Shown here in pieces: positions 1,460-17,248 of a stretch of 23,479 bases of DNA. Origin of the DNA: Solirubrobacteraceae bacterium (GTDB taxonomy: Bacteria; Actinomycetota; Thermoleophilia; Solirubrobacterales; Solirubrobacteraceae); assembly GCA_030043235.1 (NCBI GenBank), contig JASHYF010000429.1, positions 1 to 23,479 of the forward strand, given 5' to 3'. The notes below the pieces were generated by a model that had not been told where the DNA came from, did not search any database, and was given only the letters and a program-made list of their open reading frames with translations. The position numbers and the translations under genes were made by a program. Each line of letters opens with the position of its first letter. Position 1 is the first letter of the stretch.

Positions 1460-2139
1460 GTCTCGGCGCTTCGCCCGAGACCCTGGCGGACGATGTAGGC
1501 GGCGGCCTGCGTGCGGTTCTCGAGCTGGAGCTTCTCGAGGGCGTTGTGGATGTGGTTCTTCACCGTCCCCTCCGTGATGAAGAGGCCCGCGCCGATCTCC
1601 TTGTTGCTGAGACCGTCGGCAACGAGCTGCAGAACCTCCAGCTCGCGCCGCGTGAGCGCCGGCGTCTGAGGCGCCGAGGCCGGTATGACCGGCGGCGCGC
1701 TCGCGTCGCGGATCTGGCCGAGCAGCCGCTTGGCGATGGCCGGAGAGAGAGGGGATTCGTCGTGCATCACCGCCCTGACCATGGAGTAGAGCTCCGCCGG
1801 GCGGAGGTTCTTCAGCAGATACCCCTGCGCGCCGAAGCGGATCGCCTCGAAGAGATGGTCATCGGACTCGGACACCGTCAGGATGACGACCTTGGCGTTC
1901 GGCACCTGTTCCCGGATGAGGCGCGTCGCCTCGACCCCGTCCATCACCGGCATTTCGATGTCCATGATGACGACGTCGGGCTTCAGCGCGCGTGCCTTCT
2001 CGACCCCCTCCAGGCCGTTCTCGGCTTCGCCGACGACCTCGAGGCCGTCCTGCCCCTGCAGGAGCTCCGCGACCGACATGCGCAGCAGCGCTCTGTCGTC
2101 GACGAGCAGGATGCGGATTGGCCCGGTCGGCTCCCGCAT
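1453..2139 (-). CDS. NarL/FixJ-family response regulator
   Basis: 228 residues. The N-terminal CheY-like receiver has the acidic pair Asp14/Asp15, the phospho-acceptor Asp60 in 'VVIMDIEMPVMDG', the switch Thr88 and the conserved Lys110 in 'GYLLKNLRP'. All key receiver residues are present. The C-terminal LuxR/GerE helix-turn-helix ('LTRRELEVLQLVADGLSNKE', then 'GTVKNHIHNALEKL') covers about residues 161-220. The ATG follows directly after the kinase stop codon (TAG at 2142-2140) with no spacer, the usual arrangement for a cognate pair. It should be a DNA-binding transcription factor activated by the upstream kinase. Its targets are unknown; the two downstream genes are obvious candidates. Family assignment is secure, the specific symbol is not. 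Confidence 0.93.
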   Translation of the reverse strand: MREPTGPIRILLVDDRALLRMSVAELLQGQDGLEVVGEAENGLEGVEKARALKPDVVIMDIEMPVMDGVEATRLIREQVPNAKVVILTVSESDDHLFEAIRFGAQGYLLKNLRPAELYSMVRAVMHDESPLSPAIAKRLLGQIRDASAPPVIPASAPQTPALTRRELEVLQLVADGLSNKEIGAGLFITEGTVKNHIHNALEKLQLENRTQAAAYIVRQGLGRSAETG

Positions 2140-3531
2140 CTAGATCGACGGGATCGGCGCTCGCGCGGGAACGTTGGGAAGCTCGGCCACGACGCGCGTG
2201 CCGCGCCCCGGAGCGGAGTCGGTCACCACCGTGCCACCGATCATCTCCATGCGCTCGCGCATCGAGTGCAGCCCGAACCCGCCCCGCCCCAACAGCTCTT
2301 CGGTCACGTCGAAGCCCCGGCCGTCGTCCTCGACGACGAACGTGACCGTGCCGTTGTCCTCGCTGATGCGGACGGTCGTCGTCGCCGCGCCCGAGTGCTT
2401 GCGCACGTTCGTGAGCGCCTCCTGGACGACCCTGATGATCTGGATCTCGCTGCGGGGGGGAAGCGCCAGCTCATGCTCGAGGCTCGCCTGAAGCGACGCG
2501 GCGATCCCGCACTGCTTGCTGTACTTGTCCAGGTAGGCGCGCAGGCTGTCCAGCAGGTTGCGGTCGACGCGGCTGGATTCGTGCAGATCGAGGATCGCCC
2601 CGCGGGCATCGCCGTAGCCCTCCTCGCACGCGTCCGCAAGGTCGATCAGCTCGAGCGCGATCGGCGCCGTGACGGCGTCCTCGCGCGAGGTGAGCGCGCG
2701 CAGCCGGAGATGCACTGCTCCGAGCACCTGCGCGAGGCTGTCGTGCAGCTCGCGAGCGATCCGCTCCCGCTCGGCGAGGATCGCGCCCTGCCTCTCGCTC
2801 TCGCGCATCCGAGCGCTGGCCACGGCGATCGAGGCAAAGCCGGCGAAGGTCGTCAGGAACTGCCGATCGCGCTCGTCGAAGGGGACCGCCGAGCTGCGGC
2901 CGACCCAGAGGTCGCCGAGCGCCCTGTCAGAGCTCTGCACCTGAAGCTGCACGCTCTCCTTCACCTCCGGCGATGAGCGCAGGGAGCGCACGTAGCGGAG
3001 ATCGTGGAGGTCGCAGGACCCGTTGGCGCCGGGCAGGATGCAGACCCCCTCGCGCAGGGAAGCCGCCCCCGCCGGCGTTGGGCCGAGCTGGACGGATCGG
3101 GTCGTGGCGTCGTTGAGGCAGACGGCCGCGAGGTCGCTCGCCAACAGGTCGCGGGCGTGCCGGGCCACGGCGGCGAGGATATCCGCGAGAGGGTCCTGGT
3201 TCGAGATCCGAAGCAGCACGTCGTAGAAGGCGTGGCCCTCTCGCTGCCTTCGCCGCAGGTCGGTGACCACCTGGGCCGTCTCGGCCTGGGCGCGGGCGAT
3301 GAAGTGAAACATGACGAACGAGAAGGCGATCACGGCGACGACAGTGATCACCGCGAGGACGATGTCAGGGCTGTAGTCGGCGGAGCCCTTCTCGACGATG
3401 GCGAGGCGGATCAGCTCGATCGCCAGGATGAAGAGCACTGGCAGCACGACGCCGATTATCCTCAGGCGACGGAGAGTCACCGGCCGAGTGCCGGGCCCGG
3501 TCTTCTGTTGCCTCATACCACCGCGTGCCAT
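2140..3531 (-). CDS. NarX/LiaS-type membrane sensor histidine kinase with GAF domain
   Basis: 463 residues from the preferred ATG at 3531, which has AAGGTGG about 9 nt upstream; an in-frame ATG at 3633 lies inside an AT-rich promoter-like island and is less likely. Two transmembrane helices (about residues 25-46 and 57-78) are joined by a very short loop, so there is no real extracytoplasmic sensor domain. A linker helix and a GAF-like domain (about 105-240) follow; it contains 'GVCILPGANGSCDLHD' with two cysteines nine residues apart. The HisKA_3 box 'RIARELHDSLAQVLG' places the phospho-accepting His at about 263. The HATPase has its N box ('VVQEALTNVRKHS'), G1 ('DDGRGFD') and G2 ('GRGGFGLHSMRERM'). 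It pairs with the adjacent NarL-type regulator. The signal is probably cytoplasmic or membrane-borne, possibly redox through the GAF cysteines (inference). Confidence 0.92.
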   Translation of the reverse strand: MARGGMRQQKTGPGTRPVTLRRLRIIGVVLPVLFILAIELIRLAIVEKGSADYSPDIVLAVITVVAVIAFSFVMFHFIARAQAETAQVVTDLRRRQREGHAFYDVLLRISNQDPLADILAAVARHARDLLASDLAAVCLNDATTRSVQLGPTPAGAASLREGVCILPGANGSCDLHDLRYVRSLRSSPEVKESVQLQVQSSDRALGDLWVGRSSAVPFDERDRQFLTTFAGFASIAVASARMRESERQGAILAERERIARELHDSLAQVLGAVHLRLRALTSREDAVTAPIALELIDLADACEEGYGDARGAILDLHESSRVDRNLLDSLRAYLDKYSKQCGIAASLQASLEHELALPPRSEIQIIRVVQEALTNVRKHSGAATTTVRISEDNGTVTFVVEDDGRGFDVTEELLGRGGFGLHSMRERMEMIGGTVVTDSAPGRGTRVVAELPNVPARAPIPSI

Positions 3532-3605
3532 CTGGAAGGTCCACCTTCTCTCGCTCCTTCGCTCGCCGTCGACATCGGCCGCCAGGAGCCACCAACCAGC
3601 TATGC

Positions 3606-3645
3606 CGTTAGACACATATACATCAGAATACATATACTATAGTGG
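3606..3645 (-). promoter_or_regulatory. AT-rich promoter island of the kinase operon with paired 8-bp repeats
   Basis: A sharp AT-rich stretch in an otherwise very GC-rich window. ACATATAC occurs at 3614-3621 and 3630-3637, direct repeats with a 16-bp period. On the minus strand TATAGT (3641-3636) is a plausible -10 element, which would leave a leader of roughly 100 nt before the ATG at 3531. No good -35 is seen, which fits an activator-dependent promoter. The rest of 3532-3706 has no recognisable gene. Confidence 0.45.
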
Positions 3646-3706
3646 CCAGACGGCCGAAAACGCCGAAGCGGGAGGCGTTTCGTCGTTGTCCGCAAAGAGC
3701 CGCCGG

Positions 3707-5038
3707 TCACCCACCCGTCATCCGGCCCGAGCGAGCCGGCGGCGGCTCTCGGAGACCGGATGCCGGATCGGGGCGAGCGCCGGCCAGCGCCATACCGGCG
3801 GTGGCTCGTTGGCCACCGAGGCGCGTGGCAGCCGGCATCCCGGCGAAAAGGCAAAGCGCACATGCCACGAGCAGCGCAGTGTGCACACCCGAGGCGCTGG
3901 GACCGCCTGCGAGCGCCACACCGGCCAGGCCCGCCCCGGCGGCGGCGCCCAGCAGGCGGCCGATCGACAGCATCGCGGCGGTACGTCCATGTGATGCGAG
4001 CGGCGTCGCGTTGAGGGCAGCGCGCGAGGTTGGCACGAACAGCATTCCCAGTCCCAGGCCCACGGGGATCAGCACGGGTATCGTCGCCGGGTCTTGCAGC
4101 GACACCGCTGGGATGCCGAGCACCGCAAGACCGCCGCCCGCCGCGAGGAACCCGAGCAGTGCCGGCAGGCGCTCCCCGCGCCGATCGGCAAGCCGCCCTG
4201 CGAGCGGCGCCGCGGCGCTCACGAGCGACGCCACCAGCACGAGCACGCTCGCGGCCTCCAAGGCCGTGTAGCCGGCGATCCGCTGGAGGTACTGCTGCGC
4301 CAGGTAGAAGGAGCCGATCATGACGGCGAACGTGATCGCGGCGATGAGCGTGGCGGCGAGGACCACGCTGTCGAGGACCGCCGGCCCGCCCCTTGCAGCA
4401 TCGCCGTGCCCGATCCTCGGCAGGTGATCGAAGATGGCCCAGGCGGAGACGAGCGCGAGCGGCACGAGGGCCCACCAATCTGCACGCCAGCCGAGCGTGA
4501 CCGTCAGCAGCCCGCCGAGCACTGGTCCGAGCAGGGTCGAGACGCCCGCGCTGGCGCCCCAGATCCCTAGTGCGCTGCCGCGACGCTCGGGAGGGAAGCC
4601 ACTCACCGCGCCCGCGAGCGCTGCGGGACTGACGAGACCGGCGCCGGCGCCCTGAATGATGCGTGTGGCCACCAGCACGCCCATGCTGGTCGCCAGCGCG
4701 CCCGCGGCTGCGCCAAGCGCAAAGACGCCGAGCCCGCACAGCGCCAGGCGGCGCGCCCCGAGGCGGTCCACCAGCGCGCCGCCTGGAAACAGCGTCAGTG
4801 CATACGCACCGAAGTACGCGCTCAGCACGATCGAGGTCGAGGCGCTGCTCACGCGAAGGCTGTGCGCGACGGAGGGCAGCGCGACTGTGATCAGCGTTCC
4901 GTCGAGCTGCAACAGCGCTGCTGCGCCGGTGCAAGCGAACAGACGCTTCCATGCTGCACGCGGAATCTCCTCACGCGCGCTGGGACCACGATCGAGCCAA
5001 TCGTTTGTGCGGCTGGGCTTGTGGGTGAGGCCGGTCAC
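3707..5038 (-). CDS. Major facilitator superfamily permease, DHA2/EmrB-QacA-like
   Basis: 443 residues if it starts at GTG 5038, just before 'TGLTHKPSRTNDWLD'. Longer in-frame starts, up to 5302, would run through low-complexity sequence and overlap the divergent gene. MFS motif A appears as 'GGALVDRLGARR' after TM2, and the exporter-type motif C as 'GVSTLLGPVLGGLL' in TM5. 'LLQLDGTLITVALPSVAHSL' is the typical TM1 of drug/H+ antiporters. A second motif-A-like loop, 'AGRLADRRGERLPALL', lies in the C-terminal half. The family exports small hydrophobic compounds using proton motive force; the substrate cannot be told. The segment joining the two halves is short: after TM6 ('WALVPLALVSAWAIFDHLP') the chain passes almost directly into the helix normally numbered TM9 in 14-helix members. 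It faces the haem operon divergently across 239 nt. Confidence 0.85.
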   Translation of the reverse strand: MTGLTHKPSRTNDWLDRGPSAREEIPRAAWKRLFACTGAAALLQLDGTLITVALPSVAHSLRVSSASTSIVLSAYFGAYALTLFPGGALVDRLGARRLALCGLGVFALGAAAGALATSMGVLVATRIIQGAGAGLVSPAALAGAVSGFPPERRGSALGIWGASAGVSTLLGPVLGGLLTVTLGWRADWWALVPLALVSAWAIFDHLPRIGHGDAARGGPAVLDSVVLAATLIAAITFAVMIGSFYLAQQYLQRIAGYTALEAASVLVLVASLVSAAAPLAGRLADRRGERLPALLGFLAAGGGLAVLGIPAVSLQDPATIPVLIPVGLGLGMLFVPTSRAALNATPLASHGRTAAMLSIGRLLGAAAGAGLAGVALAGGPSASGVHTALLVACALCLFAGMPAATRLGGQRATAGMALAGARPDPASGLREPPPARSGRMTGG

Positions 5039-5277: not shown

Positions 5278-6324
5278 ATGGCTGAGGGCGCAGCTGCAGC
5301 ACTCGATGAGCTCGATCGCAGGCTGCTCAACCTCATGCAGCGCCGGTTTCCCCTCGAGCCCCGTCCCTACGCTGCGGTGGCAGAAGCGGCGCAGATCACC
5401 GAGCGAGAGGCCCTGAAGCGCGCGCAGCGTCTCACGCAATGGCGAATCATCCGCCAGGTCACGCCGATCTACGACACGCGCGCGCTCGGCTACGACTCGA
5501 TGCTGGTGGCTGCCAAGGTGGACCACGAGCGCACCTGCCGGGCGGCCAAGATCATCAACTCCCATCCAGGGGTCTCCCACAACTACATGCGTGACCACGA
5601 GCTGAACATGTGGTTCACGATCGCCGTGGCGCCAGACTCGGCGCTTGGCTTGGATGGCACGCTGGAGCTCCTGAAGGAGCTGACAGGGGCGATCGCGATA
5701 CGGAGGCTGCCCACGCTGCGGCTGTTCAAGATACGCATGGAGCTGGAGATGGAGGGCGGCGCGGAGGCGCTCACTGGGCCGGAAGTCGTGCAGGAGCCCA
5801 CCTACCCCGAGCCGGTCCCCTACGACGAGCTGGACGTGGCGGTGATCCGCGCCACGCAGGGGGAGATGCCGGTGAGCGCGGAGCCATACGCCCCTGCGGC
5901 GGCGCGGCTTTCGATGAGCACCGGCGAGCTGCTCGAGCACATGCAGGGCATGCGCGAGCGCGGGCTGCTGCGGAGGGTGGCGGCAATCCTCTCCCACCGG
6001 CGGGCGGGCTTCTCAGCCAACGGCATGGGGGTCTGGAAGGTGCCGGCGCAGCGGATCATGGAGCTGGGACCGCAAATGGCCGCCTTCCGCGGTATCTCCC
6101 ACTGTTATGAGCGGCCCACCTATGAGGACTGGCCGTACTCCATTTTCACCATGGCGCACGGTCGCTCGCGGGCTGAGTGCGAGGCCGTCCTGGCGGCGAT
6201 CGCAGAGCAAACGGGGATCGATGAGCGCGCCGTCCTGTACTCCACCACGGAGTTCAAGAAGATTCGCCTGCGCTACTTCACGGACGATCTGCGCTCATGG
6301 GAGCACGAGCACGCGGGCGCGTGA
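5278..6324 (+). CDS. ahbAB: Siroheme decarboxylase, AhbA-AhbB (NirDL-type) fusion
   Basis: 348 residues made of two Lrp/AsnC-like halves. In the known family this protein removes the acetate carboxyls at C12 and C18 of sirohaem to give 12,18-didecarboxysirohaem, the entry step to haem b by the Ahb route and to haem d1 by the Nir route. The first half (about 8-155) has a winged-helix start ('LDELDRRLLNLMQRRFPLEP') and 'SHNYMRDHELNMWFTIAV', the family's ligand-site signature. The second half (about 182-340) repeats this with 'YDELDVAVIRATQGEMP' and 'ISHCYERPTYEDWPYSIFTMAH'. The ATG has GAGGGA at a good distance. In many organisms the halves are separate genes; here they are fused as in NirDL. 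Despite the AsnC fold it should be an enzyme, not a transcription factor. It leads the haem gene run. Confidence 0.9.
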   Translation: MAEGAAAALDELDRRLLNLMQRRFPLEPRPYAAVAEAAQITEREALKRAQRLTQWRIIRQVTPIYDTRALGYDSMLVAAKVDHERTCRAAKIINSHPGVSHNYMRDHELNMWFTIAVAPDSALGLDGTLELLKELTGAIAIRRLPTLRLFKIRMELEMEGGAEALTGPEVVQEPTYPEPVPYDELDVAVIRATQGEMPVSAEPYAPAAARLSMSTGELLEHMQGMRERGLLRRVAAILSHRRAGFSANGMGVWKVPAQRIMELGPQMAAFRGISHCYERPTYEDWPYSIFTMAHGRSRAECEAVLAAIAEQTGIDERAVLYSTTEFKKIRLRYFTDDLRSWEHEHAGA

Positions 6325-6382
6325 CCGGTGTTTGGACGCCATGGGAGCGCGCCCATGTGGGCGCGTGACCGGTGTTTGGACG
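6296..6382. repeat. 44-bp tandem duplication covering the ahbAB stop codon
   Basis: Positions 6296-6338 and 6340-6382 match at 38 of 43 bases with a period of 44. The last 24 bases (6315-6338 and 6359-6382) are identical. The first copy holds the last codons and TGA of ahbAB; the second lies in the 120-nt spacer before the next gene. The second copy has mutated into a small hairpin, CATGGG/CCCATG (6340-6345, 6352-6357). It may be simple slippage or a spacer RNA element. Confidence 0.75.
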
Positions 6383-6444
6383 GAGGCGTTCTCAGTAGTA
6401 CGCCGCGTTGCGAATCACATCGATGAGCGCCTACGCTCGAAGAT

Positions 6445-7662
6445 GTGACGATTAACTTCGACCCGGCTGAGCATTCGGGGGATCCGATGCATCTGGATCC
6501 CTCAGCGCGGGCTGCGCGTACGGAGCGCGACGGCCTGCTTGCGATGCTCGACTTCGACAACGCGCCGTTCACGATCGCCTGGGAGCTCACGCGGGCATGT
6601 GCGTACGCATGCCTGCACTGCCGCGCGGAGGCACAGCCGCGCCGGGACCCACGGGAGCTCGACACGCAGGAGGCCCTGCGCCTGATCGATCGGCTCGCCG
6701 GCTTCGGAACGCACCCGATCCTGGTGCTCACCGGCGGCGATCCGCTGATGCGCCGCGACCTCTTCGAGATCGCCAGCCACGCGACCGAGCAGGGCCTGCG
6801 GGTCGCGCTCACCCCGACCGCCACCGCGCTGCCCACGCGCCGGCGGATGGCGCAGGCGCGCGAGGCGGGCATACGGCGGGTGGCGTTCAGCGTCGACGCC
6901 TGCGAGCCCGAGGTGCACGACCGCTTCCGCGGCTTCCGCGGCTCCTTTGCGCGCACGCGCACCGGCATGGCCAATGCGGACGCCGAGGGGCTGCCGCTGC
7001 AGATCAACACCACGGTGTGCGCACAGAACGCCGGCCAGCTCGAGCGTATGGCCGCGATGCTGAGCGAGTGGGGCATCGTCCAGTGGTCGGTCTTCTTCCT
7101 GGTGCCGACCGGTCGCGGCAGGAGCCTCGAGATGCTCGATGCGGCCGGCCACGAGCGCGTGCTGGGTTGGCTACACGAGCTCACGCGCACGGCGCCCTAC
7201 GACATCAAGGCGACCGCGGCGCCGCAGTACCGGCGCATTGCCATGCAAAGCGGCGGCACCATGCCCGGCGCCGGGTATCACTTCGGCGACGGGCTTGCGC
7301 GGCCTGCGAAGGGAGTCAACGACGGTCGCGGATTCATGTTCATCTCCCACCGCGGCGAGGTCATGCCCTCGGGCTTTCTGCCGCTCTCGGCTGGGAGCGT
7401 GCGGGAGGAGGACCCGGTCGCGATCTACCGGCGGGCACCGCTGTTCAGCGCGCTGCGCGATCCCGCAAAGCTGAAGGGAAAGTGCGGAGACTGCGAGTTT
7501 CGCGAGGTGTGCGGCGGCAGCCGGGCGCGTGCCTATGCCGTGACCGGCGACGTGTTTGCCGAAGACCCGAGCTGCCCGTACATCCCGGCGGGCGAGGGCC
7601 CTGAAGAGAGACCTCTGACCGCCGCTCGCGGTGGGGAAGGAGCTCGGTCATGCTCAGCGTGA
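6445..7662 (+). CDS. ahbD: AhbD-like radical SAM/SPASM protein (TIGR04053-type)
   Basis: 405 residues from GTG 6445. ATG 6487, with GGGGGAT a few bases upstream, is an equally likely start. The radical SAM cluster motif is Cys52-x3-Cys56-x2-Cys59 in 'TRACAYACLHCRAEA', followed by 'VLTGGDPLMR' (the GGDP/GGEP SAM-binding motif). A C-terminal SPASM/twitch-like motif, 'GKCGDCEFREVCGGSRARAY' with Cys-x2-Cys-x5-Cys and a later Cys in 'DPSCPYIP', should hold an auxiliary [4Fe-4S] cluster. AhbD oxidatively decarboxylates two propionates of Fe-coproporphyrin III to give haem b. The phrase 'WSVFFLVPTGRG' is characteristic of the related TIGR04053 group, whose members cluster with these genes. Its end overlaps the ahbC start by 13 nt, so the two are coupled. 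The fold is certain, the exact reaction inferred from context. Confidence 0.8.
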   Translation: MTINFDPAEHSGDPMHLDPSARAARTERDGLLAMLDFDNAPFTIAWELTRACAYACLHCRAEAQPRRDPRELDTQEALRLIDRLAGFGTHPILVLTGGDPLMRRDLFEIASHATEQGLRVALTPTATALPTRRRMAQAREAGIRRVAFSVDACEPEVHDRFRGFRGSFARTRTGMANADAEGLPLQINTTVCAQNAGQLERMAAMLSEWGIVQWSVFFLVPTGRGRSLEMLDAAGHERVLGWLHELTRTAPYDIKATAAPQYRRIAMQSGGTMPGAGYHFGDGLARPAKGVNDGRGFMFISHRGEVMPSGFLPLSAGSVREEDPVAIYRRAPLFSALRDPAKLKGKCGDCEFREVCGGSRARAYAVTGDVFAEDPSCPYIPAGEGPEERPLTAARGGEGARSCSA

Positions 7663-8843
7663 GCCGGCTGTTGAATGGACAGGTCGAGTCCGGAGATGCC
7701 CTGCGCTACGGGCGCTCGACTGCGCGCAGCCCAGCCCATCTCCTGCACTTCACCGCGGACAAGAAGCCGATCGTGGTGTGGAACATAAGCCGGCGTTGCA
7801 ACCTGCACTGCGTGCATTGCTACTCGAGCTCGCAGAATCACGACTACCCCGGTGAGCTCAGCTTCCAGGAGGGCGAGCGGATGCTGGCCGATCTCGCGGA
7901 CTTCGGCGTTCCCACCGTGCTGCTGTCCGGCGGCGAGCCGCTGATGCGCCCCGACGTGTTCGAGCTGGCCACGTGCGCGCAGGCGCTGGGGATGCGCACG
8001 GTCCTGTCCACGAACGGCACGCTCATCGACGACGCGACGGCCGAGCGCATCGCCGCCGCTGGCTTCTCCTACGTCGGCGTGAGCCTGGACGCGATCGGGC
8101 CCGCTCACGACAAGCTGCGGGGCAAGGTGGGCGCCTTCCAGGGAGCGATCGCGGGCATCCGCGCGGCGCAGGGCGCCGGCCTGCGCACCGGCATCCGCTT
8201 CACGCTCCACGGGCTCAACCGCGAGTACCTCGGACAGGTGTTCGATCTGGCGCAGGAGATCGACGTGGAGCGGCTGTGCATCTACCACCTCGCCTACGCC
8301 GGCCGCGGGGGCAAGATCAGCAAGCACGACCTCAGCCCGGCCCAGACGCGCGAGGCGGTCGAGGAGATCTTCGACAGGGTGGAAGACCTCGGTCGCGGCG
8401 ACTCGCCGGTTGAGGTGTTGACCGTCGATAACCCCGTCGACAACGCCCTGCTGCTCATGCGCATCCGGCGCACCCAGCCAGCCCGCGCCGCCGACGTCGA
8501 GCGGATGCTGCGCTGGAACGGCGGCAACCAGTCCGGCATCGCGATCGCCTGCGTCGACCCAACCGGCCTGGTGCATCCCGACCAGTTCTCGTGGTCCATC
8601 AACGTGGGCGACGTGCGGCGCCAGTCCTTTGCCGAGATCTGGAACGACGAGAATCCGGCGCTTGCGCCCTACCGGCTGAGTCCCCGTCCGATCGGCGGGC
8701 GCTGCGCGGGCTGCACTTTCTTCCCGTTGTGCAACGGCGGTCTCAGGGTACGGGCCGAAAGCGCCACCGACGACCCACTTGCCCCGGACCCAGCGTGCTA
8801 TCTGAGCGAGCCTGAGATCGCCGGGTCGGTGCTCACGGCGTGA
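7650..8843 (+). CDS. ahbC: Radical SAM protein AhbC/NirJ (12,18-didecarboxysirohaem processing)
   Basis: 397 residues; the ATG has GGAAGGAG about 8 nt upstream and overlaps the previous gene by 13 nt. The N-terminal phrase 'PIVVWNISRRCNLHCVHCYSSS' carries Cys50-x3-Cys54-x2-Cys57 and closely matches NirJ/AhbC proteins, as do 'LSGGEPLMRPDVFELA' and 'LSTNGTLID'. The C-terminal auxiliary-cluster motif is 'GGRCAGCTFFPLCNGGLRVR' plus 'DPACYLSEPEI', again NirJ/AhbC-like. AhbC removes two acetate side chains from didecarboxysirohaem to give Fe-coproporphyrin III; NirJ acts on the same compound toward haem d1. Sequence alone does not separate them. No nirF, nirN, nirE or nirS is seen here and an AhbD-like partner is next door, so haem b is favoured. 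Confidence 0.85.
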   Translation: MLSVSRLLNGQVESGDALRYGRSTARSPAHLLHFTADKKPIVVWNISRRCNLHCVHCYSSSQNHDYPGELSFQEGERMLADLADFGVPTVLLSGGEPLMRPDVFELATCAQALGMRTVLSTNGTLIDDATAERIAAAGFSYVGVSLDAIGPAHDKLRGKVGAFQGAIAGIRAAQGAGLRTGIRFTLHGLNREYLGQVFDLAQEIDVERLCIYHLAYAGRGGKISKHDLSPAQTREAVEEIFDRVEDLGRGDSPVEVLTVDNPVDNALLLMRIRRTQPARAADVERMLRWNGGNQSGIAIACVDPTGLVHPDQFSWSINVGDVRRQSFAEIWNDENPALAPYRLSPRPIGGRCAGCTFFPLCNGGLRVRAESATDDPLAPDPACYLSEPEIAGSVLTA

Positions 8844-10927: not shown

Positions 10928-11683
10928 TCAAGGGCTGGCGGGGAGCGCTTCGACCATTCGTTCCTGCATATCGGCGATCAGAGCGCGCACCGCCTCCTCG
11001 CGGTCCTGCCTGAGCAGCTCGATGGGGTCGGGATCGCCGCCCACGATGGACTCGAAGAACAGCTTGCGATCGTGGTAGGTGGGCAGCGTGCCCTTGGCCC
11101 AGCCGCGCACCTCGTTGAGCAGCACGGCCAATCGCGCGTAGGCCTCGCCGAACTCCTCGCCGATCTCCTTCGCCATGCGCTTGGCGAGCGCCGGCGAGGC
11201 CCCGGCGGTGGAGATGGCGATGGCGAGCGGTCCGCTGCGCACGATCGCCGGCAGGATGAAGTTGCACAGTGGGGGCACGTCCACGACGTTGACCAGCATG
11301 GACCTGCGCTCGGCGTCCTCGTGGACGCGGAGGTTGAGCCCGGTATCGTCCGTGGCGGCGATCGCCAGGAAAGCGCCCTCGAGGTCCCCGGACCCGGCGT
11401 AGTCACGCTTCTGCCAACCGATCGAGCCCTCGCGGGCATACTCCTGAAGCGGCCCGACCGCGGTGGGCGCGATGAGGGTCACGCCGGCCCCGCACGCCAG
11501 CAGGCCCTCGACCTTGGCCAGCCCGATCGCGCCGCCGCCCACCACCACGCCGCGCCGGCCCTCGAGCCTCAGGCAGGCGATGTAAAGCGGGGTCTCGAGC
11601 ATGTCCTCCACGCAGGACTGGTCGCAGATGCCCTTGTGCAGACGGCACACGCACCCCTTGCCGGCATAGGCCTCGGCAACCAT
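10928..11683 (-). CDS. sirC: Precorrin-2 dehydrogenase / sirohydrochlorin ferrochelatase (SirC/Met8/CysG-N)
   Basis: 251 residues from ATG 11683; ATG 11602 is an alternative. The core matches the CysG N-terminal/Met8 family, which oxidises precorrin-2 with NAD+ to sirohydrochlorin and often inserts Fe2+. It has the Rossmann loop '[29 protein letters not shown]', then '[19 protein letters not shown]' with Asp135 at the place of the catalytic Asp, and '[15 protein letters not shown]'. The usual family start corresponds to about residue 29. Upstream is an extension with Cys-x-Cys-x6-Cys-x3-Cys (Cys11, 13, 20, 24). It looks coding (24 of 27 codons end in G/C), and GAGG precedes both ATGs. The gene follows the DGC-DtxR gene by 42 nt on the same strand, so it is likely under the same metal control. 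It would supply sirohaem precursor to the Ahb enzymes. Confidence 0.88.
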
Positions 11684-11725: not shown

Positions 11726-12868
11726 TCAGCCACAACGGCGCACGAGCACTCTCGCGGCCGTCTCCGAGTCGATTGTGCACCTCGTCTCGCCGATGCGCAC
11801 GTCCATCTTCGACGCGGTGCCGGCATCGGCAAGCACGAGCGCCGTCCCCGGCACCAGCCGCAGCTCATACAGGCGCGCCAGCGCCGGGCCGTCATGCTCC
11901 ACCAGGCGCGCGACGGTCGCCCGATCGCCGGGGAGGAGCGTTGTCAGGGTGCTCAGCTCGCGGCTCTCCGCGCGTGCCCGGACCGGGTCGATCGGCCAGC
12001 CGTGCGGGCAGCGCTCCGGGCCGCCGAGCGCGCTCGCGACGCGCCCGATCGCCTCATCGCCGAAGGCGCCGTCGAGCATCCTGGCCTGCTCGTAGGCCTC
12101 GGTGGGCGGATACCCGAGGAAGTCGGTGGCCAGGCGCTCGAGCAGCCGGTGGCGCCACACGGCGCGGTCGGCCGCTGCGCGACCCGTCGCCGTCAGCATC
12201 AGCTCCTTGCGCGCACTGCGCTCGATCAGGCCCGCGGCTTGAAGCCGGGCCAGCATCTGCCCGGCCGACACGCGCGACACCGAGAGCAGGTGCGACACGT
12301 GCGCCGCCAGTGCGGGGGCGTCCGCCGCCAAAGCACCGCAGCCGAGCACCGTCGAGGCGAGCGCGTCGATCGCGATCAGGTAGTCCTCGACTCCGTGCGT
12401 TCGCTTCAGTCGTGAAGCCGGGTCGGGCCGGGCTGGGCGGGGCGGTCGTCCGCGTCGCCCGCTCGTGGGCCGTTGGCGAATACGCGTGGCGATCTCGGCG
12501 GCAAGCTGCGCCACCTCCTCCTCGCCTGCGCCCTGCACGTCCACGCCCAGTTCGCGCAGGTTGAGGGTGAACCGCGGAGATGCGCCCTTTGCCTCGAGGA
12601 GTCGCGCGCTGCACGCGGACGGGCAGCCGTCGATCGCGATCACCGCACGGCCGGCACGCGCCTGGCTGACGAGGAGATCGACGTCCTCGACGGCCTCCGC
12701 GATGGCCAGCTCGGCGAGTGCGGCAGCGGTCCGCGCGGCCAGACGCGCGCCCGGACTGCCACCCCGGCAACAGCTCACGAGCGGAGGCTCGGCGAACGTC
12801 GTCGGCCTACCCGCACGCTCGGCGGCGGCGGGTGGCGGTGAATGCCCAGATCCAGACCGTGGCGCCAT
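11726..12868 (-). CDS. DGC zinc-binding domain fused to a DtxR/MntR-family regulator
   Basis: 380 residues in two parts. Residues ~25-130 match the DGC domain: 'PLVSCCRGG' (Cys33, Cys34), 'VIAIDGCPSACSARLLEAKG' (the Asp-Gly-Cys motif, Cys82, Cys86) and 'LRELGVDV'. After a basic Pro/Arg linker (~132-155) comes a DtxR-family repressor: winged helix (~160-232), dimerisation domain with 'RHRLLERLATDFLGYP' and 'ERCPHGWPI' (~236-295), and a C-terminal FeoA/SH3-like domain (~303-380). By eye alignment to DtxR, His79 and Glu83 are kept (His240, Glu244), but Met10, His98, Cys102, Glu105 and His106 become Asp162, Tyr259, Arg263, Asp266 and Gly267. The start abuts two DtxR-like palindromes, so the gene is probably autoregulated and near-leaderless. 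It should be a repressor of sirC and the Nramp gene, with sensing possibly moved to the DGC cysteines. Confidence 0.85.
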   Translation of the reverse strand: MAPRSGSGHSPPPAAAERAGRPTTFAEPPLVSCCRGGSPGARLAARTAAALAELAIAEAVEDVDLLVSQARAGRAVIAIDGCPSACSARLLEAKGASPRFTLNLRELGVDVQGAGEEEVAQLAAEIATRIRQRPTSGRRGRPPRPARPDPASRLKRTHGVEDYLIAIDALASTVLGCGALAADAPALAAHVSHLLSVSRVSAGQMLARLQAAGLIERSARKELMLTATGRAAADRAVWRHRLLERLATDFLGYPPTEAYEQARMLDGAFGDEAIGRVASALGGPERCPHGWPIDPVRARAESRELSTLTTLLPGDRATVARLVEHDGPALARLYELRLVPGTALVLADAGTASKMDVRIGETRCTIDSETAARVLVRRCG

Positions 12869-12869
12869 G

Positions 12870-12888
12870 TTAGGGCTACCTAACCTAA
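12870..12888. promoter_or_regulatory. DtxR/IdeR-like operator 1
   Basis: TTAGGGCTACCTAACCTAA matches the 19-bp IdeR/DtxR consensus (TTAGGTTAGSCTAACCTAA) at 14 or 15 positions, with the left TTAGG and the right CTAACCTAA block intact. It also contains the smaller palindrome TTAGG-GCTA-CCTAA. It begins two bases upstream of the DGC-DtxR ATG, so occupancy would block that gene's transcription and start. Confidence 0.75.
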
Positions 12889-12891
12889 TAT
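12886..12891 (+). promoter_or_regulatory. Candidate -10 box TAATAT toward the Nramp gene
   Basis: TAATAT lies exactly between the two operator palindromes and is the best -10-like hexamer in the divergent region. A repressor on either site would cover it. No good -35 is visible. A transcript from here would have a leader of about 125 nt that includes the short ORF. Confidence 0.4.
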
Positions 12892-12892
12892 G

Positions 12893-12906
12893 TTAGGGCA
12901 CCCTAA
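12893..12906. promoter_or_regulatory. DtxR-like operator 2
   Basis: TTAGGGCACCCTAA is a perfect palindrome of two 6-base arms around CA. It shares its TTAGGG half with operator 1 and lies 23 bp further on, start to start. The two sites fill the divergent promoter between the DGC-DtxR gene and the Nramp gene. Confidence 0.7.
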
Positions 12907-13022: not shown

Positions 13023-14360
13023 GTGTCCGCAGCCCTCCCCGACCCGGCAGGTGCCTACCCGGCCGAGGCCGGGTGGACGGATCGAGCCGGCATACCCGCG
13101 ATCGCAGAGGAGGGGCCTCGCGGCGCTGCACGCGCCGGCCGCCGGCGCTGGTGGCTCGTGCTGCTGGCCGTGTGGGGGCCGGGGCTGGTCGTGATGCTTG
13201 CCGACACGGATGCCGGGAGCCTCGTGACCGCCTCCCAGTCCGGCGCGCGCTGGGGCTATGCGATGGTGCTTCCCGAGCTCGTGCTGATACCGATCCTCTA
13301 CGTCGTCCAGGAGATGACCGTGCGGCTCGGCGTCCTCACCGGCAAGGGCCACGGCGCGCTCATCCGGGAGCACTTCGGGCGCGGGTGGGCGTTCCTGTCG
13401 GCAGGCACCCTGTTCCTGTCGGCCACGGGCGCGCTCGTCACCGAGTTCGCGGGCATAGCCGGGGTGGGCGAGATGTTCGGCCTCGCCCGTTGGGTGACGA
13501 TTCCGATTGCGACGACAACGCTGATCGCAGTCGCCACCATCGGGCGCTACCGCCGCGTCGAGCGGATCGGCATCTTCTTTGGGCTCGGCGAGCTCGCCCT
13601 CCTGCCGGCGCTCGTCCTGGCCCATCCACACGTGCCGGCGATGCTTCACGGACTGACATCCGTACCGTTGGGCCACGGGTCGTACATGCTGCTGGTGGCC
13701 GCCAACGTCGGCGCGGTGATCATGCCCTGGATGATCTTCTACCAGCAGGGCGCGGTCATCGACAAGGGCCTGACCCGGCGGGCGATCCGCGCCGAGCGGC
13801 AGGACACCGCGGTCGGGGCGATCCTCACCCAGGTCGTGATGATCGCGATGGTCGTGCTCGTGGCGGCGGCCGTCGAGCGGGGCGCACATCCTCTCAATCT
13901 CGAAACCGTCGGTCAGATCGCGGCGTCGCTGGGCCCCGTGCTCGGAGCGGCGACTCCGCGAGTTCTCATCGGCCTGGCGGTGCTCGGGGCCGCCCTGGTC
14001 GCTGCCCTGGTGGCCTCGCTCGCCGCCTCCTGGGGGCTCTCGGAGGTCCTCGGCTGGCCCCACACGCTCAACCGCCGACCCGACCGGCAAACGGCGAAGT
14101 TCTACGTCACGTATGCCCTCGCCCACGTGCTCGGCGCCGTGCTCGTGCTGGCGAGCATCAACCTGATCGGCCTGATCATCGACGTGGAGGTCATGAACGC
14201 GCTGCTGCTGCCGATCGTGCTCGGCTTCCTGTTGGCGCTCGAGGCGAGGACGCTCGCCTCCCACCAGCGCATGCGTGGAGGGCGTCGCGTGCTCGTCACC
14301 GTGCTGTGCATGGCGGTCATGGGCTTCGGGCTGTACATGATTCCGGCGCTGCTCGCCTGA
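13023..14360 (+). CDS. Nramp-family divalent metal transporter, divergent motif variant
   Basis: 445 residues, about 11 transmembrane helices, GTG start with GGAGAAGG upstream. Canonical Nramp/MntH proteins have Asp-Pro-Gly-Asn in TM1 and Met-Pro-His in TM6. Here TM1 reads 'LADTDAGSLVTASQSG': Asp63-Ala-Gly-Ser66 in place of DPGN, plus an extra Asp61. TM6 reads 'VGAVIMPWMIFYQQG', keeping the metal-ligand Met234 but with Trp236 for His. Other family-like phrases are 'QEMTVRLGVLTGKGHGALIREHFG' and 'TEFAGIAGVGEMFG'. Retained Met suggests a transition-metal substrate (Mn2+ or Fe2+) rather than Mg2+ as in the Nramp-related magnesium group, which has lost it; the Asp-x-Asp-Ala-Gly version could alter proton coupling. 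It diverges from the DGC-DtxR gene across two DtxR-like operators, so metal-responsive import is the best reading. Confidence 0.85.
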   Translation: MSAALPDPAGAYPAEAGWTDRAGIPAIAEEGPRGAARAGRRRWWLVLLAVWGPGLVVMLADTDAGSLVTASQSGARWGYAMVLPELVLIPILYVVQEMTVRLGVLTGKGHGALIREHFGRGWAFLSAGTLFLSATGALVTEFAGIAGVGEMFGLARWVTIPIATTTLIAVATIGRYRRVERIGIFFGLGELALLPALVLAHPHVPAMLHGLTSVPLGHGSYMLLVAANVGAVIMPWMIFYQQGAVIDKGLTRRAIRAERQDTAVGAILTQVVMIAMVVLVAAAVERGAHPLNLETVGQIAASLGPVLGAATPRVLIGLAVLGAALVAALVASLAASWGLSEVLGWPHTLNRRPDRQTAKFYVTYALAHVLGAVLVLASINLIGLIIDVEVMNALLLPIVLGFLLALEARTLASHQRMRGGRRVLVTVLCMAVMGFGLYMIPALLA

Positions 14361-15702: not shown

Positions 15703-17160
15703 TCACGTAGAAGTCCTCAGTTCCGCGTGTTCACCGCCGTGGCAGCGCTTCCACTTGCGGCCGCTCCCGCACGGGCAGTGCTCGTTGCGGCCACGCCGTC
15801 GATCCTCCGCCGCGTAACGTCCAACGATCTCCGCGGGCGCTTTGCCGCTGTGCAGCAGGTCGACCATGGTCTGCATGGGCCGTTCGATGTGGCGGAAGAA
15901 CGTCCGGTAGCCAGCACACAGGAAGTTGAGCCCAGGCTCGCCGTCCGGGGTCGAGACGAAGCGGTCCTTCGGACAGCCGCCGTGACACGCGAAGCGCACA
16001 TCGCAGTCCAGGCAGTAGCGCGGGAGGGCGTCGCGCTTGTCCCGGCCGAAGCGCTGCTGCCTGGCGGAGCCCACCATTTCGGCGAGCGTGCGCTCGCGCA
16101 TGTTGCCCAGCAGGAACTCGGGCTGCACGAAATGATCGCACGAGAACAGGTCGCCCGTGTGGCCGAGGGCGAGCCCGCGGCCGCAAGTCTCAGAGTGCAC
16201 GCAATGGTCAGGGGAAACGCCCGCCCAATTGGCGAGCGCGACGTCGAAGGTTCGTACGAAGACCTCGCCGACGTCCCGGCGCACCCACTCCTCGAAGACG
16301 TCGATCAGAAAGCGCCCGTACTGCTCGCCGCTCACCGAGCGAGCGGTGACGACGTTGCCCTCCTGCTTGTAGAGGGGGCGGTCGCGCCACGAGGACCACG
16401 GCACCGAGCCGTCCTCGAGCGCGCCCGCCACCCGCTCCACGATCGGAATCAACTGCACGAAGCGCGCATCGCAATCGTCCCTCAGAAAGCGGTAGATCTC
16501 ACGTCCGCGGGCGGCGTTGGCATCGTGGACCGTGGTCAGCGCATTCCACTCCACGCCGGCGTCACGCAGGTGGCCGAGGCCGCGCATGACCTTCTCGAAG
16601 CTGCCGCGACCGCCCCTGGTGACACGGTAGGTGTCGTGGACGTCGCGCGGCCCATCGATCGACACGCCCACGAGAAACGCGTGCTCCTTGAAGAACGCCG
16701 CCCACTCCTCGTCGATGAGCGTGCCATTGGTCTGGATCGTGTAGACGACGCGCTGGCCCGTCCGTTGGTGCCTCTTTGCGATCTCGACGGAGCGGCGGAA
16801 GAAGTCGAGGCCCATGAGCGTCGGCTCGCCGCCCTGCCAGGCGATCAGCACCTCCGGCAGGCCCGCATGCGCCTCGAACAGCTGCCGTAGGTACTCCTGC
16901 AGCACCTCGTCGGTCATGCGGAAGCGGCCGCCCGGATAGAGCATGTCCTTCGAGAGGAAAAAACAGTAAGCGCAGTCCAGGTTGCACGCCGCGCCTGTCG
17001 GCTTGGCCAGCAGGTGGAACGGCGACGGCGTCGCATCCCGTCGCACGACGTCACCGAGCAGGCCCCGGTCGGGCTCGGAGCGCGCAATCCTTCCGCCGAG
17101 CTTCCCCCGGAACTCTGAACCCGGGCTCGAGAGCACGCCGCGGCCGGGCTGGTCGGACAT
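15703..17160 (-). CDS. anSME-like radical SAM/SPASM maturase with SEC-C tail
   Basis: 485 residues from ATG 17160, preceded by AAGGAGG at ideal distance (an upstream in-frame start at 17211 is not needed). The radical SAM motif is Cys59-x3-Cys63-x2-Cys66 in 'PTGAACNLDCAYCFFLSK', followed by 'AWQGGEPTLMGLDFFR' and 'QTNGTLID', all typical of anaerobic sulfatase-maturating enzymes, which convert an active-site Cys or Ser to formylglycine. The SPASM cysteines are complete: 'HCVHSETCGRG', 'LFSCDHFV', 'YCLDCDVRFACHGGCPKDRF', and the late 'LNFLCAGYRTFFRH'. At the extreme C terminus is a SEC-C zinc motif, 'NEHCPCGSGRKWKRCHG'. No sulfatase is present in the window, so the target is unknown. It heads the operon with the Cys receiver and membrane Usp; a target outside sulfatases, or those partners themselves, is possible. 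Confidence 0.85.
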   Translation of the reverse strand: MSDQPGRGVLSSPGSEFRGKLGGRIARSEPDRGLLGDVVRRDATPSPFHLLAKPTGAACNLDCAYCFFLSKDMLYPGGRFRMTDEVLQEYLRQLFEAHAGLPEVLIAWQGGEPTLMGLDFFRRSVEIAKRHQRTGQRVVYTIQTNGTLIDEEWAAFFKEHAFLVGVSIDGPRDVHDTYRVTRGGRGSFEKVMRGLGHLRDAGVEWNALTTVHDANAARGREIYRFLRDDCDARFVQLIPIVERVAGALEDGSVPWSSWRDRPLYKQEGNVVTARSVSGEQYGRFLIDVFEEWVRRDVGEVFVRTFDVALANWAGVSPDHCVHSETCGRGLALGHTGDLFSCDHFVQPEFLLGNMRERTLAEMVGSARQQRFGRDKRDALPRYCLDCDVRFACHGGCPKDRFVSTPDGEPGLNFLCAGYRTFFRHIERPMQTMVDLLHSGKAPAEIVGRYAAEDRRRGRNEHCPCGSGRKWKRCHGGEHAELRTST

Positions 17161-17248
17161 GTGAGGACCTCCTTGGACGCAGGGGCGCGTTAGCGGTCGC
17201 TGGACGATCATCGCACAGCCGCGTGCGGCCGGCCAGACCTAGACTGAA

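Follow-up and report, generated by a model that had tools for sequence, protein, structure and literature searches.

The described systems that come closest to the regulator analysed here are the streptococcal Mn2+ repressors ScaR, SloR and MtsR and the actinobacterial Fe2+ repressors IdeR and DtxR. ScaR binds Mn(II) via Glu80, Cys123, His125 and Asp160 (PMC4805248), site 1 of MtsR and SloR is made up of His76, Glu80, Cys123 and His125, and mutants of this site in MtsR completely lost repression (PMC9253540). For IdeR and DtxR, the 14-bp box TTAGGNNNNCCTAA (TTAGGN4CCTAA) has been proposed as redefined consensus (PMC8464063). Searches of the literature, mostly without subscription papers, returned no paper on a DGC domain together with DtxR, on PF08859, on COG4273 or on metalloregulators formed by DtxR domain fusion, and no experiment on any DGC domain; among the matches listed, "DGC domain" seems to stand for diguanylate cyclase. 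To our knowledge, no function is known for DGC domains.

The stretch of Solirubrobacteraceae DNA studied here (23,479 nucleotides, hereafter the window) contains a gene in which a DGC domain is joined to a complete DtxR-type repressor (Table 1). As the preliminary description had proposed, this is a true single protein: one open frame covers both halves and the same architecture was found in 55 further sequences, i.e., 56 DGC-DtxR fusions in total, which rules out two separate proteins. The DGC part reaches 48.4 bits with the curated Pfam profile (cut-off 27) and carries the DGC motif as Asp80-Gly81-Cys82. All elements of the DtxR family, the winged helix-turn-helix (HTH), the dimerisation/metal domain and the FeoA/SH3-like domain, lie in one chain; the HTH is weak in Pfam, and the structural alignment of the predicted model to the DtxR family covers residues 154-379, the listed matches of the structure comparison referring to the DtxR part. 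From sequence and this one predicted model, which form the evidence base throughout, we lean slightly towards a metal-activated DtxR-family repressor of metal import, which would work mainly via the ScaR/SloR/MtsR-type site and receive a second, cysteine-based input from the DGC domain. The ATG of the gene lies one base from the first operator box (window 12866-12870) and codons 2-30 contain no ATG, GTG or TTG, so that a leaderless transcript or a shorter protein is possible; most of the listed relatives start about 27 residues later.

Table 1. Features of the fusion locus and its surroundings (positions in the window).
Feature	Position	Strand	Basis or remark
Precorrin-2 dehydrogenase (CysG N-terminal type)	10928..11683	-	TIGR01470 over cut-off; 42 bp downstream of the fusion gene
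DGC-DtxR fusion gene, 380 aa	11726..12868	-	Single ORF, domain profiles, predicted model
FeoA/SH3-like domain, residues 307-377, with Glu324	11738..11950	-	PF04023
Dimerisation/metal-binding domain, residues 226-293, with His240, Glu244, Cys287, His289	11990..12193	-	PF02742
Degraded triad Arg263/Asp266/Gly267			Alignment; inside the dimerisation/metal-binding domain (residues 226-293)
Winged HTH, residues 158-225	12194..12397	-	Alignment and predicted model
Fusion-specific His190 codon	12299-12301	-	Within the winged HTH
Fusion-specific Cys177 codon	12338-12340	-	Within the winged HTH
Pro/Arg-rich linker, residues ~133-157	12398..12472	-	Low conservation; pLDDT 66-78 in blocks 131-160
DGC domain, residues 31-119, with Cys34, Cys82, Cys86	12512..12778	-	Pfam PF08859
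Box TTAGGGCTACCTAA	12870..12883	.	Together with the following CCTAA (up to 12888), it makes up three of the four repeats in the 19-bp IdeR/DtxR operator (PMC8464063)
Second box TTAGGGCACCCTAA	12893..12906	.	Starts 23 bp from the start of the first box
NRAMP metal importer, divergent, presumed main target	13023..14360	+	Pfam Nramp E 9.2e-62; NCBIfam MntH subfamily far below cut-off

A sequence-profile alignment of the fusion to SloR, ScaR, MtsR, M. tuberculosis MntR and IdeR revealed that the classic ligands have mostly been replaced. The primary site of DtxR and IdeR (Met10, Cys102, Glu105 and His106) reads Asp162, Arg263, Asp266 and Gly267, with Asp162 assigned by eye as the sequence alignments begin after that position, and His98 of DtxR became Tyr259. 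Of the MntR-type binuclear site (Asp8, Glu99, Glu102 and His103), only the Asp8 equivalent is kept, again by eye. Both sets of exchanges had been read from the sequence in the preliminary description and agree with the alignment. His79 and Glu83 of DtxR are retained as His240 and Glu244, and in the same alignment Glu80, Cys123, His125 and Asp160 of the ScaR/SloR/MtsR-type site 1 correspond to Glu244, Cys287, His289 and Glu324, the last being a Glu in place of the Asp160 of SloR and ScaR, while His76 of site 1 is represented by His240. Judged by this alignment, the residues of a documented regulatory metal site remain in the fusion.

With the streptococcal repressors the protein shares the three DtxR domains, the matched site 1 positions and the CPHG motif; these chains, however, lack a DGC domain and retain Glu99, Glu102 and His103, where the fusion has Arg, Asp and Gly, and the boxes of the fusion belong to the IdeR type known from actinobacteria. 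IdeR and DtxR are alike in fold and in the 14-bp box, but their Cys102, Glu105 and His106 are replaced in the fusion and IdeR features SPFG instead of CPHG. The MntR of M. tuberculosis (5zr4/5zr6) differs by keeping Glu99, Glu102 and His103 and by an Asp at the position of Cys287.

Conservation among the relatives supports a role of site 1. The Glu244/Cys287/His289/Glu324 quartet is intact in 55 of the 56 fusions, and His240 is found in 41, being replaced in the other 15. The exception is L007 (genome G105; L082:482-1516), which lacks the CPHG region although the gene adjoins FeoB. The CPHG segment is kept in L004, the sister of the G105 fusion, and its lack in G105 reflects either a deletion or an assembly fault. 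Among the near unfused relatives, comprising 42 rows (31 loci and 11 database proteins) of which some may stand for one and the same gene (the branch between L020 and P0050 has length 0), the quartet is intact in 39, the exceptions being L014 (Asp/Lys), P0059 (gap at 324) and P0061 (Arg at 324). These relatives belong to the same class (e.g., L019, L024 and P0049) and resemble the fusion in the DtxR half (36-49% identity in the loci), the lost triad and the mostly intact site 1; they differ by the absence of a DGC domain, by Tyr177, Arg190 and His259, and by Asp263/Gly266/Asp267 in 25 of the 42. P0045, which is listed without DGC but starts inside an apparent DGC remnant and groups with the fusions, was left out of the unfused count, and P0043 (658 aa) was excluded from all counts.

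The preliminary description had suggested that the DGC cysteines took over sensing from the classic sites. In its strict form, i.e., a DtxR half that no longer senses metal and DGC cysteines that do all the sensing (of metal, an Fe-S cluster or redox state), this would fit the absence of a classic triad ending in His from all 56 fusions, Arg263 in 43 of them and the loss of His259 in 47. The triad is, however, equally absent from 42/42 near unfused relatives, none of which has a DGC domain, and present (Asp, Glu or Cys, followed by Glu and His) in 7/7 more distant unfused ones. Its loss therefore preceded the fusion, and primary-ligand loss as a consequence of the fusion is ruled out. The fusions have gone beyond this at position 263, where the near unfused relatives mostly have an acidic residue (36/42), and at His259, kept in 9/56 fusions vs 42/42 near unfused proteins. 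The near-complete conservation of the quartet also speaks against sensing by the DGC domain alone, as does the location of some near unfused relatives next to ZIP, FecCD, IucA/IucC or NRAMP genes. The preliminary description had itself named intact ligands elsewhere in the protein as evidence that would speak against its model, and at the level of sequence the quartet appears to be just this. We consider a DtxR half without any metal sensing improbable.

Within the favoured metal-activated repressor, the second input would come from the DGC domain. Standalone DGC proteins (PF08859, "putative zinc-binding protein") share with the fusions the cysteines C1, C3 (in the DGC motif) and C4, with C1 present in 119/119 (one sequence lacks a residue there) and C3 and C4 in 120/120 each, a set that comprises the best 120 among the 2071 matches of a single query and thus one subfamily; more distant DGCs also show four cysteines by eye. 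In the fusions, C1 is found in 53/53 (three have no residue there) and C3 and C4 in 56/56, which bears out the earlier emphasis on Cys33/34, Cys82 and Cys86. In contrast, C2 occurs in 120/120 standalone DGCs vs 0/56 fusions, where the column is entirely absent in 55 and a Ser is found in P0037, leaving three of the four cysteines typical of standalone members. In eight genomes of family f8 (L055-L057, L059 and L061-L064), a different DGC lineage is represented by two or three genes per genome, of which at least two lie near one another.

Two residues of the DNA-binding domain go along with the fusion. Cys177 is found in 55/56 fusions vs 0/40 unfused proteins (all 40 have Tyr; two more are gapped), and His190 in 52/56 vs 0/40 (all 40 have Arg). 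Every fusion has at least one of the two: those without His190 (P0030, P0039, P0048 and L015) all have Cys177, and P0037, which lacks C2 and has Tyr177, has His190. As P0037 forms the first branch of the fusion clade, the simplest reading of the sequences would be an early loss of C2 and an origin of Cys177 after the first split; a reversion in P0037 is a possible alternative. Since each change maps to essentially one event, their association counts as one data point. Perhaps Cys177 and/or His190 take the place of the ligand that the DGC domain lost, thereby joining both domains via a metal or Fe-S site. This would yield a two-sensor repressor, in which the state of a second metal or Fe-S site, shared by Cys34, Cys82 and Cys86 with Cys177 and/or His190, positions the DNA-reading domain while Fe2+ or Mn2+ at Glu244/Cys287/His289/Glu324 does the rest, a model that we put forward tentatively and regard as possible, though doubtful.

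Alternatively, the DGC domain could play a passive role, either structural with bound zinc or in binding a partner, the protein simply being an Fe2+/Mn2+ repressor acting via its site 1 ligands. The almost invariant site 1 residues would fit such a function, and some sources name DGC proteins putative zinc-binding or uncharacterised metal-binding. Yet the three DGC cysteines are invariant while the rest of the domain diverges, and the fusion-specific Cys177 and His190 would require another reason, so that we regard a passive DGC domain as unlikely. Cys177 and His190 could also form a metal site of the DNA-binding domain itself, together with His158 and Asp162 and independent of the DGC cysteines. 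All four are highly conserved in the 56 fusions (His158 in 53, Asp162 in 56, Cys177 in 55 and His190 in 52), but His158 and an acidic residue at 162 are each present in 38/39 unfused proteins with a residue there, which have neither Cys177 nor His190, and the loss of exactly one DGC ligand would be left unexplained. Such an independent site appears quite improbable to us, and a cysteine-based DGC input remains our preferred reading.

Turning to the putative targets, two exact TTAGGNNNNCCTAA copies lie directly upstream of the fusion gene, as in an IdeR/DtxR-type operator. The 2.67 Mb assembly (59% complete) contains five such sites and none of a reversed control pattern, and two of the five are those of the intergenic region between the fusion and NRAMP genes. 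Of the other three, two lie on contig C320, where one precedes an ABC ATPase gene and is flanked on its opposite side by an Rrf2 gene, while the other precedes a solute-binding protein gene, by inference parts of an iron-type importer; the remaining box is located on contig C65 near a GAF-LuxR gene. Four of the nine fusion genes whose neighbourhood was read adjoin NRAMP or FeoB, and the same four carry boxes: besides the window, L080, L081 and L082 adjoin FeoB and have one exact box each, in two cases accompanied by a box with one mismatch at distances of 21 and 24 bp. The metal-import context suggested earlier is thus found in the window and in three relatives. No box with up to one mismatch was found within 300 bases of the gene in five of the eight other fusion loci, which adjoin non-transport genes, namely IlvD and a PAS kinase (three loci, IlvD being scanned in one and the kinase in two), an SDR (one) and HerA/RibD_C (one), nor by the same measure in 11 of 12 unfused loci. 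The unfused L093, next to FecCD and a periplasmic binding protein, has a box; further neighbours of unfused relatives are a ZIP transporter (L091), IucA/IucC (L095), an NRAMP relative (L037), an aminotransferase (L094) and PriA (L089), with a gene that we take to be MetK from its sequence start on the other side of the L089 gene. In L108 (positions 1733-4284, genome G101), a standalone four-cysteine DGC gene immediately precedes FeoB in the same orientation. As fusions are found by FeoB as well, DGC and FeoB may share a role.

The preliminary description had also placed sirohaem synthesis under the control of the fusion protein. Given the short distance and shared strand, the precorrin-2 dehydrogenase gene is probably co-transcribed with the fusion gene; none of the other eight fusion loci, read over 4.7-15.5 kb each, gave a precorrin-2 dehydrogenase match. 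A second copy of this gene, 73% identical, is found on contig C328 of the assembly. Further along the window, 5278-8843 encodes a sirohaem decarboxylase in which AhbA and AhbB are fused (each half exceeding its NCBIfam cut-off) and two radical SAM proteins, one AhbD-like (TIGR04053, over cut-off) and one AhbC-like (450.6 bits vs a cut-off of 650), probably representing a sirohaem-dependent haem pathway. The link of a fusion gene with sirohaem-derived haem genes was seen at the window locus only. At 15703-17211, the window also encodes a radical SAM protein of the anaerobic sulfatase maturase type, which exceeds its NCBIfam cut-off.

In a tree of 112 rows, all 56 fusions and the remnant P0045 form one clade with an SH-aLRT support of 96, or 100 without P0037, values that stem from a quick search with SH-aLRT as the sole support, flagged long branches and an outgroup that does not fall on one side of a branch. 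A scan of genome contigs returned only two distant planctomycete relatives. In the phylum sample, five genomes outside the class gave matches, none of which starts before residue 124. Two candidates for DGC-spanning matches were rejected, as the upstream part looks like an unrelated hydrolase by eye in G196 and is interrupted by stops in G330. In 23 other genomes of the same genus (63-97% complete) no fusion-like match was found, the best E-values belonging to generic DtxR proteins. A mis-binned contig can be rejected as cause of this sporadic distribution, since five of the 23 genomes have a hydantoinase with 80-85% identity to that of this contig (one match being partial) and the contig therefore fits the genus. 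The fusion locus rather looks acquired or patchily lost.

In the metal-activated repressor that we favour, Fe2+ or Mn2+ would be bound by the quartet and His240 between the dimerisation domain and the FeoA domain of the predicted fold. The metal-loaded dimer could then cover the paired TTAGGN4CCTAA boxes (12870-12906) and repress the divergent NRAMP importer as well as the gene of the regulator itself and the precorrin-2 dehydrogenase gene behind it. The DGC domain might hold Zn2+, iron or an Fe-S cluster on its three cysteines, Cys177 and/or His190 supplying the ligand lost with the second cysteine; when filled and reduced, this site would fix the DNA-binding domain, while an empty or oxidised site would alter it. 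Domain make-up, residue conservation, boxes and neighbouring genes are observed; the identity of the metal, the activation of repression by it, the operon, and what the DGC domain signals and in which direction are what we infer here.

The component parts of this regulator are of known kinds; what is new to us is how they are combined, that the protein apparently relies on site 1 and that a cysteine site may be shared. A DGC domain joined to a repressor of known type provides a reporter of what DGC domains sense. Moreover, members of this lineage, fused and unfused alike, seem to make do with site 1 in the absence of the classic primary site, which raises the question of what purpose that primary site serves.
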